Below, in pieces: positions 2-6,074 of a stretch of 7,396 nt of DNA. Under the pieces are notes generated by a model that did not search any database, was not told the origin of the DNA, and saw only the letters and a list, made by a program, of their open reading frames with translations. The stretch spans positions 1 to 7,396 of the forward strand of contig PLSY01000226.1 in assembly GCA_003164275.1 (NCBI GenBank), given 5' to 3'. Source of the stretch: Acidimicrobiaceae bacterium (lineage in GTDB: Bacteria > Actinomycetota > Acidimicrobiia > Acidimicrobiales > RAAP-2). Positions within the stretch are counted from its first letter, which is position 1. Each line of letters opens with the position of its first letter. The position numbers were made by a program, and so were the translations under genes.

Positions 2-1279
2 GAGGTGTCGACGGACAAGGTTGACTCCGAGGTGCCCTCGCCTGCCGAGGGGGTCCTGACCAACATCCTGGTCGAAGAAGGTGACACCGTCGACGTCGGT
101 GTGACGTTGGCCGTCATCGGCGAGGCCTCGTCGTCCAACGGGGATGCCCCGGGTGCGGCAGCAGCAGCGCAGGAAGCGGGACCTGCTCCTGAGCCCGAGC
201 AGTCGCCTGCGGCACAGGCACCGGCTGAGAGCCCGACGGTCCAGGCCGACCGAGAGCCGGCCTCTGACCACGAGGGCGACCCCTCCCCGGTCGGCACCGA
301 GCCGACGCCGCCTCCTACCTCTCCTCTCAACGGATCCTCGGGCGATGGACTCGTGTTGTCGCCAGTGGTTCGGAAGCTGATGACCGAGCACGGCATCGAT
401 CCGGCCTCGGTGACCGGTACCGGACTCGGGGGACGTATCACCCGCTCCGACGTCGAAGCCATCGTGGCCAAAGGAGAACCGGCAGCAGTGCCGAGCATCG
501 CCCCGGCCCCCGTCGTCTCCGCTCCTCCTCCTGCTGGTGAAACTGGCCCACTCCCGACGGCCACGGAGCGGGACGAAGTGGTGCCATTCACCAACATCCG
601 CCGTCGGACGGCCGAGCACATGGTGCGTTCCAAAGCCACCTCAGCCCATACGCTGATGGTCAAGGAGATCGACTACGAGCGGGTCGAGCAGGTTCGCCGG
701 GCCCATGGCGAGCGCTTCAAGTCTGAAGAGGGGTTCAGCCTCACCTACCTGCCGTTCGCCGCTCGAGCCACCGTCGAAGCGCTGGCCGAATTCCCCCATC
801 TCAACTCGTCAGTCGGGGACGACTCGCTCATCGTCCACCGCGACATCAACTTGGGCATCGCAGTCGACCTCGACAATGAGGGTCTCATCGTGCCGGTGGT
901 GCACAACGCTGAGGAGCTGAACCTGCGGGGCATGGCCCGAAGGATCCGGGATGTGGCCGGCCGGGCCCGGAGCAAGCGGCTCAGCCTCGACGACATCAGC
1001 AACGGGACCTTCTCGATCACCAACGCCGGACCGTTCGGAACCATGATCACGGGAGCGATCATCAACCAGCCCCAGGTGGCGATCTTGTCCACCGACGGAG
1101 TCTCGAGGAAGCCCGTGGTCGTCGAACTGCCCGACGGCACCGAGTCGATCGCTATCCACTCCGTTGGTCTCGTGGCCATGAGCTTCGACCACCGAGCGGT
1201 GGACGGTGCGTACGTCGCCAGGTTCCTTGCCCGACTGTCACAGGTTCTCAACGATCGTGACTGGGCCGGCGAGCTCTAG
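2..1279 (+). CDS. sucB: Dihydrolipoamide acyltransferase, E2 of a 2-oxoacid dehydrogenase complex (5' partial)
   Basis: E2 core enzyme that carries acyl groups on a swinging lipoyl arm and transfers them to CoA. The gene starts before the window: the frame is open from base 2 and the first codons lie inside the lipoyl domain, so the GTG at base 5 is not the real start. Counting that valine as 1, the STDKVD lipoylation motif gives lipoyl-lysine 5, and the lipoyl domain ends near 40. A Pro/Ala/Glu-rich linker follows to about 115. A peripheral subunit-binding domain occupies about 117-155 (VRKLMTEHGID, GRITRSDV), then a second Pro/Ala linker. The catalytic domain spans about 190-424 with the active-site motif FDHRAVDG (His396, Asp400). 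The family is certain, but the substrate (succinyl, acetyl or branched-chain) cannot be told from this part. The symbol follows the mycobacterial-type synteny with lipB and lipA. The lipoylation genes lie 41 bases downstream. Confidence 0.95.
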   Translation, partial: EVSTDKVDSEVPSPAEGVLTNILVEEGDTVDVGVTLAVIGEASSSNGDAPGAAAAAQEAGPAPEPEQSPAAQAPAESPTVQADREPASDHEGDPSPVGTEPTPPPTSPLNGSSGDGLVLSPVVRKLMTEHGIDPASVTGTGLGGRITRSDVEAIVAKGEPAAVPSIAPAPVVSAPPPAGETGPLPTATERDEVVPFTNIRRRTAEHMVRSKATSAHTLMVKEIDYERVEQVRRAHGERFKSEEGFSLTYLPFAARATVEALAEFPHLNSSVGDDSLIVHRDINLGIAVDLDNEGLIVPVVHNAEELNLRGMARRIRDVAGRARSKRLSLDDISNGTFSITNAGPFGTMITGAIINQPQVAILSTDGVSRKPVVVELPDGTESIAIHSVGLVAMSFDHRAVDGAYVARFLARLSQVLNDRDWAGEL

Positions 1280-1320: not shown

Positions 1321-3054
1321 ATGAGAGCCCGGTGGCTGGGTCGCGTCCCCTATGAGGAGGCATTGGTCCTACAACAGGCCATGAGCGCCAGAGCTGACGG
1401 TGACTATCTGTTGCTGTTGGAGCACCCGGCCGTCTACACGCTGGGCCGGAACGGAGACAGCGAGAACCTCCTTGTCGACCCGGCAGACGTCGGTGCCGAA
1501 CTGGTCCACGTCGATCGGGGCGGCGACATCACCTTCCACGGGCCCGGCCAACTTGTCGGGTATCCGCTGATCTCGGTCGGCCCGGGCCTCCACCGGGGGC
1601 CCGAGCACGTGCGGCGGGTCGAGCAGATTGTGATCGACGCCCTTGTCGCTCTCGGCCTTTCGCCCGCGGATGTAGGGCGCCTGCCCGGCTTCCCCGGGGT
1701 CTGGGTGGGCCTGCGTCGAGATGGAGGCCGGGAGCCGAGGAAGATCTGCGCTGTTGGCGTCCGCACCGCCAGGGGTCGCACGACCCACGGCTTTGCCCTC
1801 AACGTGCGTCCCGACCTCGCCATGTTCGCCAATATCGTGCCGTGCGGAATTAGCGACAAGTCCGTAACCTCGCTTGCTGCCGAGGGACTTGATCTGGCCA
1901 TGTCCGACGTGGTCGATGCCATCGTCCACTCGGCCGAAGAGATATGGGGCCGTGCCGACCAGGTTCAGCGTGTGATGGACGCAGCGACGTCGGCTGAGCT
2001 CGGTTTACACTCGATGCCCACCCGGGCAGGGGCAGAGTCGCCTGGGCCATCGCCAACTCCAGAATGGGTGCCGGTCGTACTTGGCCGGCGCCGACCAGGC
2101 GAGCGATCCCTCGACCGTCGTCTCGAGCAAGCCGGTGTCGATCCGAACGGTGGCGTGGGCATGGCCGAACGGAAGCCGTCGTGGCTCCGGGTGAAGGCGA
2201 AGATGAGCGGGGAGTACCTGGGGCTCCAGCACGAGATCCGGGATCTCGGACTCAGCACCGTGTGCGAAGAGGCGGGCTGCCCGAACATCTACGAGTGCTG
2301 GGCGGACGGCACCGCCACCTTCATGATCAACGGTTCCCGGTGCACCAGGGCTTGTGGGTTCTGCCAAGTCGACACGCGGCACCCCCTGCCGCTCGACGCC
2401 GACGAGCCTCTTCGGGTGGCCGAAGCGGTGAAGAGGATGGGCCTCGCCCACGCGGTGATCACCTGTGTGGCTAGAGACGACCTTCGAGACGGGGGAGCTG
2501 GGGGCTTCGTCGCAACCATCGCCGCCATCCGCTGCCTCACCCCCCGCACGAAGATCGAAGTGTTGATCTCTGACTGCAAGGGTGACGCGCCCTCGTTGCG
2601 CTCGATCTTCGACGCCCAGCCGGATGTTCTGAACCACAACATAGAAACGGTGGCCCGCCTCCAGAGGGCAGTCAGGCCCTCGGCCGGATATGCCCGGAGC
2701 CTGGCCGTACTGGCCCGTGCGAAAGATGCCGGCCTGGTCACCAAGTCAGGCATGATCGTCGGCATGGGTGAGCGCACCGATGAGGTCATTGCCACACTGG
2801 AGGACCTCCGGGCGGTGGGCGTCGACATCGTGACCGTGGGCCAGTACCTTCGTCCGAGCCACCTTCACCTGCCGGTGGCTCGCTGGTGGACGCCAGAGGA
2901 GTTCGAGTCCATCCGGGTGGCCGGCATGTCCATGGGATTCGCTCATGTGCAATCCTCACCGCTCACCCGATCGAGCTACCACGCACGCGAAGCCTCACAG
3001 GCATCGTCCGGGATGGACATTGAGGGCTACGAGAACCTGGCGGCCGCGCTATGA
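1321..3054 (+). CDS. lipB-lipA: LipB-LipA fusion: octanoyl-ACP:protein octanoyltransferase joined to lipoyl synthase
   Basis: A single 577-residue protein that appears to hold both steps of endogenous lipoate synthesis. Residues 1 to about 216 are LipB, which moves octanoate from ACP to the lipoyl-domain lysine. They include RGGDITFHGPGQ (66-77), the KICAVGVR lysine (Lys141) and the IVPCGI nucleophile (Cys175), spaced as in known LipB. Residues about 217-283 are a linker, Pro/Ser/Gly-rich at first and then Arg-rich. Residues about 284-577 are LipA, a radical-SAM enzyme that inserts two sulfurs. The auxiliary [4Fe-4S] cysteines are CX4CX5C (315, 320, 326), the radical-SAM cysteines are CX3CX2C (341, 345, 348), and the C-terminal RSSY motif is at 550-553. 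Both halves look full length and intact. The ATG at 1321 fits the normal LipB N-terminus and no in-frame ATG, GTG or TTG lies between the E2 stop and it, although no strong ribosome site is visible, so coupling to the E2 gene is plausible. An internal ATG at 2161 lacks a clear ribosome site. That the protein stays uncut is inferred. Confidence 0.95.
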   Translation: MRARWLGRVPYEEALVLQQAMSARADGDYLLLLEHPAVYTLGRNGDSENLLVDPADVGAELVHVDRGGDITFHGPGQLVGYPLISVGPGLHRGPEHVRRVEQIVIDALVALGLSPADVGRLPGFPGVWVGLRRDGGREPRKICAVGVRTARGRTTHGFALNVRPDLAMFANIVPCGISDKSVTSLAAEGLDLAMSDVVDAIVHSAEEIWGRADQVQRVMDAATSAELGLHSMPTRAGAESPGPSPTPEWVPVVLGRRRPGERSLDRRLEQAGVDPNGGVGMAERKPSWLRVKAKMSGEYLGLQHEIRDLGLSTVCEEAGCPNIYECWADGTATFMINGSRCTRACGFCQVDTRHPLPLDADEPLRVAEAVKRMGLAHAVITCVARDDLRDGGAGGFVATIAAIRCLTPRTKIEVLISDCKGDAPSLRSIFDAQPDVLNHNIETVARLQRAVRPSAGYARSLAVLARAKDAGLVTKSGMIVGMGERTDEVIATLEDLRAVGVDIVTVGQYLRPSHLHLPVARWWTPEEFESIRVAGMSMGFAHVQSSPLTRSSYHAREASQASSGMDIEGYENLAAAL

Positions 3055-3088: not shown

Positions 3089-4246
3089 ATGACGGCCCTG
3101 ACGAGCCACGCGTTGAGTTCGCGCCAGATCCGGATCGACAGGGTGAGGGCACGCATGGAGGAGACGGGTGTCGACGCCCTCTTGTTGTCCCATGGGGCCG
3201 ACCTGCCGTGGCTCACCGGTTACAGGGCAATGCCGCTCGAACGGCTGACCATGCTGGTGCTGCGGGCCCAAGGTGATCCGGTGCTGGTTGTGCCGGCCCT
3301 CGAGGCCCCTCGGGTGAGCGCGGCGGATGACTTGTTCTCGATGCTGCCGTGGACCGACACCGAAAACCCCATCGACTTGGTCACCTCCATCCTCGGTGCC
3401 GGCGGCACGTCCGGGGACAAGCAGCGATACGCCGTGTCGGACCGCGCCTGGGTGACGACAGTTCTCGCCCTCCAACGTGAGATGCCTTCCGCGGAGTGGG
3501 TCGAGGCGTCAACGGTGACCTCTCCGATCAGGGCGGTCAAGGACGCAGACGAGCTGGAAGCCCTGAGACGTGCCGGCGCCGCCGCTGACCGCGTGGCGAC
3601 AAAGCTCCAAGCCGGCCAGATTCCGCTTATCGGTCGCACCGAGGCCGCAGTGTCGGGGGACATCGCGTCGATGCTGGTCGCCGAGGGGCACCAACAGGTC
3701 AACTTCGCCATCGTCGGCAGCGGGCCCAATGCCGCCAGCCCTCACCATGAGCCGGGCAGCAGGGTCATCGGCAGGAACGAGACCGTTGTCTGTGACTTCG
3801 GCGGGACCTACTCCCTCGACGGCGACGTCGGCTACTGCTCGGACATCACCCGAACGGTCATGACCGGATCACCGGGCGCCGACATCGACGAGTGCTACCA
3901 AGCCCTCTGGGGAGCCCAGCAGGCGGCAGTGGCCGCCGCGGCGTCAGGAGTGAGTTGCGAGCAGGTGGACAAAGTGGCGAGAGACGCGATCGGCGAAGCC
4001 GGCTTCGGCCACCTCTTCGTCCACCGGACCGGGCATGGCATCGGCATCGAAGAGCACGAGGACCCCTATCTCGTTTCGGGCAACACCGAGCTACTGCAGC
4101 CCGGTCATGCCTTCTCAGTGGAGCCTGGTATCTATTGGCCGGATCGGTTTGGCATGCGCTTGGAGGACATCATCGTCATCGATGCCGACGGACAACCTGA
4201 ACCTCTCAACCGTGTCGACCACGCACTCGTGGTCGTCGACGCCTGA
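3089..4246 (+). CDS. M24 family metallopeptidase (Xaa-Pro aminopeptidase / prolidase type)
   Basis: A 385-residue cytosolic peptidase expected to cut peptides next to proline, either an X-Pro N-terminal bond or an X-Pro dipeptide. The creatinase-type N-terminal domain covers about 12-140 (RMEETGVDALLLSHGADLPWL). The pita-bread catalytic domain covers about 150-380. All five metal ligands are visible: Asp236 (VCDFGG), Asp252 (GYCSDITRT), His316 (RTGHGIG), Glu345 (VEPGIY) and Glu359 (MRLEDI). The conserved histidines at 219-220 and 323 are also present. The two metal aspartates are 16 residues apart, five more than in E. coli PepP as I recall it, because of a small insert with sequence SLDGD. 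No signal peptide is seen. The start at 3089 is chosen for its ribosome site and because homology begins there. It follows lipB-lipA by 34 bases and precedes the SDR gene by 9, so it is probably in the same transcript. Sequence alone does not separate PepP from PepQ; creatinase-like hydrolases share this fold. Confidence 0.9.
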   Translation: MTALTSHALSSRQIRIDRVRARMEETGVDALLLSHGADLPWLTGYRAMPLERLTMLVLRAQGDPVLVVPALEAPRVSAADDLFSMLPWTDTENPIDLVTSILGAGGTSGDKQRYAVSDRAWVTTVLALQREMPSAEWVEASTVTSPIRAVKDADELEALRRAGAAADRVATKLQAGQIPLIGRTEAAVSGDIASMLVAEGHQQVNFAIVGSGPNAASPHHEPGSRVIGRNETVVCDFGGTYSLDGDVGYCSDITRTVMTGSPGADIDECYQALWGAQQAAVAAAASGVSCEQVDKVARDAIGEAGFGHLFVHRTGHGIGIEEHEDPYLVSGNTELLQPGHAFSVEPGIYWPDRFGMRLEDIIVIDADGQPEPLNRVDHALVVVDA

Positions 4247-4997: not shown

Positions 4998-5960
4998 TCA
5001 GGCCGTCTGTCCTGCTGCTAGACCGTCCGCCCATTCGCGCCGGGTCCGTGCATTCCAGAAGCGGCGTTGCACGATGAGGGCGATCACGCCCACCACCAAG
5101 AGGATGGCCACGTTCAAGAACAGCTGCTCGGTGGCGCCCCACGCCGCGTGCCACTCTCCGTAGGCGACCGAGACTCCCATTGAGGCGGCGGCGGGGATGG
5201 TGGTGACCGAAATGAACACACCGATCAGGGCACTGACCTTGCTTTGGAGGATCGAGACGACCCCAACGATGCCGGCGATGACGGCGACCAGCACCGAGAA
5301 GATGTCGGGCTCGCTGATGAGTTCGGAGACCGGGCGGTACCCCAGTGTGAAGTCATGGGGTGTGAGACCGAGTCCCCTGATGATCAGGCCGAGCAGCCAA
5401 CAAGACACGATGGCGAGGGCGAATCCCACGGCGAGAGCGACCATCCCGCGCCTGACGGGACGCCGATGGCGCTGGGTGATCCCGAGAGCGGCACCGAGTA
5501 TGGCGCTGTACTCCGGGCCAACCACCATGGCGGCCACAATGAGAATCTGGGAGTTGTCGAGGATGCCGGCCGCGGCGAGCAGTCCGGCACACAGGAGCAG
5601 GAGGAAGAAGCTGAACGGATAGGTGGCGTTGGCCCGGATAGTGGCGTCGACCACCTCCCAGACCGGGGCGATCTCACGATCGTTCACCGTCTGCTTGATC
5701 ATCTCGCGATGAGACCGTATGACCGCTGTCTCCGTCCTGTCGACCGAGATGGGTCCTCGCTGGCGCGGGCTCAACCCCCGCAGCTGACCGATCACCTGGT
5801 GGGCGACCTCTGCGGTGAGGTCGCACTCGACCACGTCGCCGTCAGGGAAGCGGGCAGATCCGGCCTGGACGGCCACGTTGACAGCGCCGCTGCTCGCACC
5901 GAGGACCTGGAGGATGATCGGGGTGCTCTCGGGGGGGCTGGCCAAACGGATGTGATACAT
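4998..5960 (-). CDS. DUF389 family integral membrane protein
   Basis: A 320-residue protein of unknown function. The N-terminal soluble part (about 1-110) begins MYHIRLASPPEST and looks like a small regulatory or ferredoxin-like domain. It is followed by about six hydrophobic segments at roughly 114-133, 137-160, 173-195, 219-238, 242-264 and 277-298. The stretch AAMVVGPEYSAILGAALGI (143-161) is the hallmark of DUF389 proteins, and the loop TTIPAAASMGVSVAYGEW (253-270) also fits the family. The C-terminus is short, charged and probably cytosolic. The ATG is preceded by AGGAGG only 3 bases away, with further AGGAGC copies from the hexamer repeat upstream. The protein matches the family from its first residues, so the start is well supported. 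It lies 141 bases downstream of metH on the same strand and converges with the SDR gene, leaving 16 bases between stops. No function can be assigned from context. Confidence 0.88.
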   Translation of the reverse strand: MYHIRLASPPESTPIILQVLGASSGAVNVAVQAGSARFPDGDVVECDLTAEVAHQVIGQLRGLSPRQRGPISVDRTETAVIRSHREMIKQTVNDREIAPVWEVVDATIRANATYPFSFFLLLLCAGLLAAAGILDNSQILIVAAMVVGPEYSAILGAALGITQRHRRPVRRGMVALAVGFALAIVSCWLLGLIIRGLGLTPHDFTLGYRPVSELISEPDIFSVLVAVIAGIVGVVSILQSKVSALIGVFISVTTIPAAASMGVSVAYGEWHAAWGATEQLFLNVAILLVVGVIALIVQRRFWNARTRREWADGLAAGQTA

Positions 5961-5963
5961 CTG

Positions 5964-5998
<35 letters not shown>

Positions 5999-6074
5999 GG
6001 TCCGCGCTCCGGCCGCGATGTCGGCTCGGCTGCAGGACCGCCGTGAGCCAGCACGCTAGCGACGCACCGGCCCG

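Follow-up and report, generated by a model that had tools for sequence, protein, structure and literature searches.

Two classic steps of lipoate assembly are usually treated as the work of separate enzymes. The octanoyltransferase LipB carries octanoate from octanoyl-ACP to a lipoyl domain, and the lipoyl synthase LipA, a radical SAM enzyme, inserts sulfur at C6 and C8. In the window, by which we mean the whole stretch of 7,396 nucleotides of Acidimicrobiaceae DNA that was analysed, one reading frame appears to carry both. Is this a genuine bifunctional enzyme, how widely is the arrangement shared and what might the joining of the two activities achieve?

The gene very probably encodes one bifunctional fused LipB–LipA enzyme, judging from comparisons with both protein families. 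A sequence-only reading had placed the two enzymes in a single uninterrupted frame, and it was correct: the frame at 1321..3054 (Table 1) contains no internal stop codon and its 577-residue product, with a predicted mass of 61.98 kDa, passes both NCBIfam cut-offs, scoring 127.7 bits against 83.55 for TIGR00214 (lipB) and 345.9 bits against 310.25 for TIGR00510 (lipA). Pfam places LplA-B_cat (PF21948) at residues 17–203, LIAS_N (PF16881) at 282–320 and Radical_SAM (PF04055) at 339–496, and the LipA half matches lipoyl synthase 5exi with an E value of 9.9e-95. The key residues that the same reading had named, Lys141, Cys175, both LipA cysteine triads and RSSY, are all present. We take Lys141 and Cys175 to be the Cys/Lys dyad of octanoyltransferase; the dyad of M. 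tuberculosis LipB is reportedly the subject of one paper's title. Neither residue varies in any of three alignments with overlapping membership, of 24, 24 and 98 fused sequences. The CX3CX2C and CX4CX5C motifs and the serine of the C-terminal RSSY, all found in the window protein, are given as hallmarks of LipA in PMC12246082, and the six cysteines, Arg550 and Ser552 are invariant across the 98 aligned fusions. GC content at the third codon position is 0.78 in the LipB half and 0.81 in the LipA half, the highest of the three positions in both; in the linker it is 0.63, below the 0.80 of the first position.

Table 1. Features of the window, in nucleotide positions, with residue numbers of the fused protein where they apply.
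Feature	Position	Strand	Remarks
2-oxoacid dehydrogenase E2	2..1279	+	PF00364, PF02817, PF00198; lipoyl domain cut by window edge
Fused LipB–LipA gene	1321..3054	+	ATG to TGA, 577 aa, single frame
LipB (lipoyl(octanoyl) transferase) half	1321..1953	+	aa 1–211; PF21948, TIGR00214
Lys141 codon	1741–1743	+	LipB half
Cys175 codon	1843–1845	+	LipB half
Linker	1951..2163	+	aa 211–281, from alignments
LipA (lipoyl synthase, radical SAM) half	2164..3051	+	aa 282–577; PF16881, PF04055, TIGR00510
Cys315/320/326, codon starts	2263/2278/2296	+	CX4CX5C, LipA half
Cys341/345/348, codon starts	2341/2353/2362	+	CX3CX2C, LipA half
RSSY, residues 550–553	2968–2979	+	LipA half
Stop codon of the fused gene	3052..3054	+	ORF end
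M24 family peptidase	3089..4246	+	Pfam
DUF389 protein gene	4998–5960	-	Pfam

The fusion is not confined to this contig. A search of about 5.8 billion proteins gave 7994 scored candidates, the best 120 of which were considered, including the window's own protein (P0002). The best 120 are 546–622 residues in length, with query coverage of 95–100% and identity of at least 67%. Their names, where given, are lipoic acid synthetase or lipoyl synthase; the names of the window's closest relatives thus cover the LipA half only and hide the octanoyltransferase, and lipB could in consequence be wrongly called missing from reconstructed pathways of the class. A scan of named genomes produced at least 80 loci, with the genes fused in 63, separate and adjacent in 16 and, in one (L073), LipA at a contig end. 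Among these loci, the fused ones bear the titles Acidimicrobiia, Acidimicrobiales, Acidimicrobiaceae, Microthrix, Actinomarina/OCS155 and Acidiferrimicrobium, and some have the broader titles Actinomycetes, Actinomycetota or bacterium; the Acidiferrimicrobium sp. locus (L039) carries no MAG mark. The separate genes come from Rhodococcus, Dietzia, Nocardioides, Mumia, Streptomyces, Allonocardiopsis, Streptomonospora and a Nocardiaceae MAG. A MAG titled Bifidobacterium breve (L046) has a fusion of the Acidimicrobiia type, on account of which its label is probably wrong.

The class itself was surveyed in 394 genomes of unstated completeness, drawn from the class of the genome (G001) that holds one of the fused loci (L025, titled Acidimicrobiales). 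A match was found in 376 of the 394, and in each of the 149 genomes listed it spanned nearly the whole query; a profile built from 24 fusions was then run against the other 227 matching genomes and all 18 non-matching ones, and none of the 18 gained a match. The LipB–LipA junction lies in one open frame in 371 of the 376 matching genomes (149 + 78 + 79 + 64 + 1), a figure that is our own reading, two matches having been pooled when contig, strand and open-frame length agreed, and that includes fusions truncated by contig ends or broken elsewhere provided that the junction is open (for example G083, G136, G145, G156, G164, G175, G238, G243 and G282). Of the five left out, four (G101, G194, G335 and G361) run into contig ends. 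The fifth, G092 (locus L091), has a separate LipB and no LipA was found in it, by reason of either an incomplete assembly or a real loss. In none of the 376 matching genomes was a split pair alone seen. Nineteen of the genomes in which one stop was counted inside a full-length match were fetched, and 18 of these have the two halves in a common frame that the stop terminates. In the remaining genome, G282 (L131), a stop lies within the LipB half, through decay or sequence error, and the junction is open. Two genomes (G343 and G392) carry two fused copies each, and G057 has, besides its fused copy, a second and very divergent unfused lipB/lipA pair (L095, contig C83) that may be contamination. 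The database search for single proteins matching LipB and LipA over their full length, proposed when only the window's sequence had been read, therefore finds them class-wide, and the fusion is conserved in nearly all sampled Acidimicrobiia that have these genes.

The E2 encoded in the window has lipoyl, E3-binding and acyltransferase domains, its gene ends 41 nt before the fused gene and it is the expected substrate of LipB and LipA. Of the 63 fused loci, 50 have a relative of this E2 no more than 200 nt upstream (two more are cut by contig ends and 11 are without it), compared with five of the 16 unfused loci. A relative of the M24 peptidase is found just downstream in 26 of the 63, and the peptidase gene is possibly on the same transcript as the fused gene. 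Further along, a short repeat of CTGCTC type occupies approximately 5964–6000, just upstream of the start of the DUF389 gene.

The search was then taken outside the class. In a phylum sample of 396 genomes, 318 of them with a match, the best matches listed include no full-length stop-free match outside the genomes of the class sample, and the other listed matches to both halves have one or two stops inside. A further 17 loci, each with a long LipA frame, were retrieved and none is fused: nine have LipB beside LipA, either in a different frame or separated from it by a stop, seven have no LipB in the stretch and one has a LipB fragment 2.2 kb away. With the LipB region of a Streptomyces locus as query, a search restricted to proteins of fusion size gave 6902 candidates, and from the best 120 of these 32 were compared with fused and unfused references. 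Eight are of the Acidimicrobiia type. In 23 both halves are nearer to unfused genes, and one (P0199) is mixed, its LipA being nearer to the fused type and its LipB to the unfused type. Of the 23, 15 have a LipA match exceeding 270 residues and 19 are clusters with a single member, which leaves sequence error possible for each of the sporadic fusions; P0152, from Actinomycetales bacterium JB111, belongs to a cluster of 13 members. The sporadic fusions noted are P0123, P0134, P0137, P0147, P0152, P0186, P0194, P0195, P0197 and P0199. We dropped the idea that the fusion is unique to Acidimicrobiia, since LipB–LipA single proteins nearer to other actinobacteria exist. By their sequence affinities these are possibly independent events, suggesting that such a fusion arises easily and may be near neutral. 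One of them, a JGI entry (P0147), is named 'lipoate synthase/lipoate-protein ligase B', which bears out an early caution that annotation may already flag fusions of this sort.

The LipA tree, and only that tree, favours a single origin of the fusion within the class. Of its 86 rows, 64 are fused, and they group together apart from the 22 unfused ones (support 97/88; 98% of bootstrap trees) in a clade with two lineages, one of 14 rows that includes Actinomarina and one of 50 that includes the window. In the LipB tree three changes are required and a single fused clade appears in 7% of bootstrap trees, with no starred branch contradicting such a clade; as this tree gives no clear single clade, two fusion events are possible. 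Just after LipB, 23 of 64 fused sequences, from both deep lineages, share a motif LxxF[STAVGK]RGxG that none of 22 unfused LipB ends has. Its presence in both lineages favours one ancestral linker, with 41 of the 64 fused sequences, the window included, being without it. The ancestor probably had a tandem lipB–lipA near E2, an order reconstructed from present loci, and the loss of the lipB stop and of a separate lipA promoter would have produced the fusion early in Acidimicrobiia.

Does the joined protein act as more than the sum of its parts? AlphaFold2 modelling of the fusion with 98 fused sequences gave a mean pLDDT of 89.6 and a pTM of 0.89, and a control in which the stop of unfused genes was read through gave 83.4 and 0.54 in what is an unmatched comparison, the control alignment having nine full-length and 20 half rows against 98 full-length rows and its query coming from another species. 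By our estimate 0.54 is about the value for two unconnected domains of such sizes. With that reservation, the difference suggests a preferred LipB–LipA docking in the fusion. It speaks to some degree against a rival account, that the fused protein is made and its halves act independently, the stop having merely been lost, with equal amounts as the sole effect and neither docking nor hand-over; so do the retention of the fusion in nearly all sampled genomes of the class and the occurrence of the LxxFxRGxG motif in both deep lineages. The same account gains from the linker, which begins with a variable Pro/Ala-rich part and has residues 222–254 predicted to be disordered (pLDDT below 50), from the sporadic independent fusions elsewhere and from the missing promoter-like box before lipA that is described below. 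We consider the chances of independent halves to be evenly balanced.

A second possibility is that a separate LipA is also made, through an internal start codon, an internal leaderless transcript or proteolytic cleavage of the exposed linker; we regard this as improbable. It has some appeal, because LipA consumes its auxiliary cluster (PMC12246082) and extra LipA could help, an ATG at 2161 stands just before the LipA domain and the linker is predicted to be disordered. In alignments the later part of the linker, which includes a segment LDRRLxxAGVDPxxG kept in the closer relatives, corresponds to the N-terminal tail of unfused LipA. Other details of the linker argue against a separate LipA. 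The window linker has ATG or GTG codons at 1972, 1975, 2014, 2068, 2155 and 2161, and a Shine–Dalgarno match of at least 5 nt precedes none of these six; the codon at 2161, for Met281, is not conserved among 24 fusions. Nine of 64 fused linkers lack any ATG or GTG, and five of the 64 have one with a 5-nt Shine–Dalgarno match. The earlier statement that there is no convincing internal ribosome site thus stands. At unfused loci a TANNNT box lies 6–7 nt before an in-frame ATG or GTG at the lipA start in 11 of 16 (L062–L068, L070, L072, L075 and L077), and the form TAGGNT is seen in nine of the 16; such a box suggests that unfused lipA has its own leaderless transcript. A TANNNT box 4–9 nt before ATG or GTG is present in two of 64 fused sequences, compared with four of 192 background stretches, and the window linker has no -10-like box before the LipA part. 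We therefore rejected an internal start or internal leaderless promoter, for which there is no signal in the window and none conserved among the fusions. It follows from the fusion that LipB and LipA would be produced in equal amounts, with which the missing box is in keeping, and that LipA production is tied to that of LipB and often to that of E2.

It is more improbable still that one half has lost its activity, leaving the fusion as a scaffold. Ten genomes, in each of which the match is on contig C1, have the fusion as their best PF21948 match, and two of them have no other; the remaining eight have a second, weaker match (that of G001 is below the cut-off), from which it follows that another acyl ligase may exist, and this may be a biotin or lipoate ligase. 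A spare ligase of that kind would leave room for an inactive half, but no catalytic residue of either half varies among the 98 aligned fusions and both halves score above equivalog cut-offs.

That a sequencing or assembly error masks a stop or frameshift between two genes has next to no chance of being right: in all 16 unfused loci (chosen by a match to both halves, which favours a shared frame) lipB and lipA share a frame and are separated by one or two stops, so that a single change could fake a fusion, but the same frame over the junction in 63 of at least 80 loci and in 371 of 376 genomes rules error out for the group, no sign of it was found in the window and the missed frameshift or stop near 1950–2170 against which the sequence-only reading had warned is very unlikely.

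The fusion is accordingly a true, class-wide variant of the known lipoate pathway, and the best reading is an obligate 1:1 LipB–LipA enzyme made beside its E2 substrate. Both halves of the window protein are, on sequence grounds, presumed active. The N-terminal half would take octanoate from octanoyl-ACP, form an acyl-Cys175 intermediate with the help of Lys141 and pass the chain to a lipoyl domain, for example that of the E2 encoded upstream. The C-terminal half would then place two sulfurs from its own auxiliary [4Fe–4S] cluster on the octanoyl chain. This matches the sequence of events in PMC12246082, where octanoylation by LipB is followed by thiolation of that chain by LipA, with the LipA auxiliary cluster sacrificed in the reaction and, in E. 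coli, renewed by NfuA. The fusion would fix LipB to LipA at 1:1, and the halves may dock, leaving the octanoylated domain only a short way to go; the predicted model hints at a direct hand-over of the lipoyl domain from the LipB to the LipA site. A stronger version, put forward tentatively and with more doubt than conviction, is that throughout the class a rigidly docked LipB–LipA beside E2 passes the domain on before its release, with LxxFxRGxG holding the pair together or gripping the lipoyl domain or ACP. If each turnover costs LipA its auxiliary cluster, a 1:1 ratio looks wasteful. In the window's bacterium, and in nearly all sampled members of its class, the enzymes for these two consecutive steps come as a single product, with the possibility of physical coupling. 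The class-wide fusion thus offers a natural test of product hand-over from LipB to LipA, and of the means by which a cell manages with the 1:1 ratio fixed while LipA sacrifices its sulfur cluster.

Among the papers listed by open-access full-text searches, judged by title and abstract opening and with subscription papers and domain databases outside this scope, none describes a natural LipB–LipA fusion. Passages in PMC10332631 and PMC3904984 discuss fusions of LplA and LplB type, and those in PMC7468506 tagged or targeted proteins only. The nearest known arrangement is the tandem lipB–lipA of other Actinomycetota (Dietzia, Rhodococcus, Nocardioides, Streptomyces and others), in which order, strand and enzymes are as in the fusion and E2 is within 200 nt upstream in five of 16; it differs in the one or two stops between the genes and in the -10-like box of lipA in 11 of 16. 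The sporadic fusions P0123, P0152 and P0147 share the domain order and the single frame of the window protein, whereas 23 of the 32 proteins compared have both halves nearer to unfused actinobacterial genes. M. tuberculosis LipA (5exi/5exk) and LipB (1w66) have folds like each half but are separate proteins; in Foldseek comparisons the LipA half matches 5exk with a TMt of 0.94, and the LipB half matches 2qhs with 0.85 and 1w66 with 0.79. The bifunctional lipoate–protein ligase/lipoyl synthase family NF053790 (LplA_LipA_fuse) likewise sets an acyl-attaching enzyme ahead of LipA in one protein. The window protein falls outside that family, with 347.8 bits against a cut-off of 800 over profile positions 331–605 of 606; the match covers the LipA half only (residues 283–557), and the front half of the window protein passes the LipB model instead.
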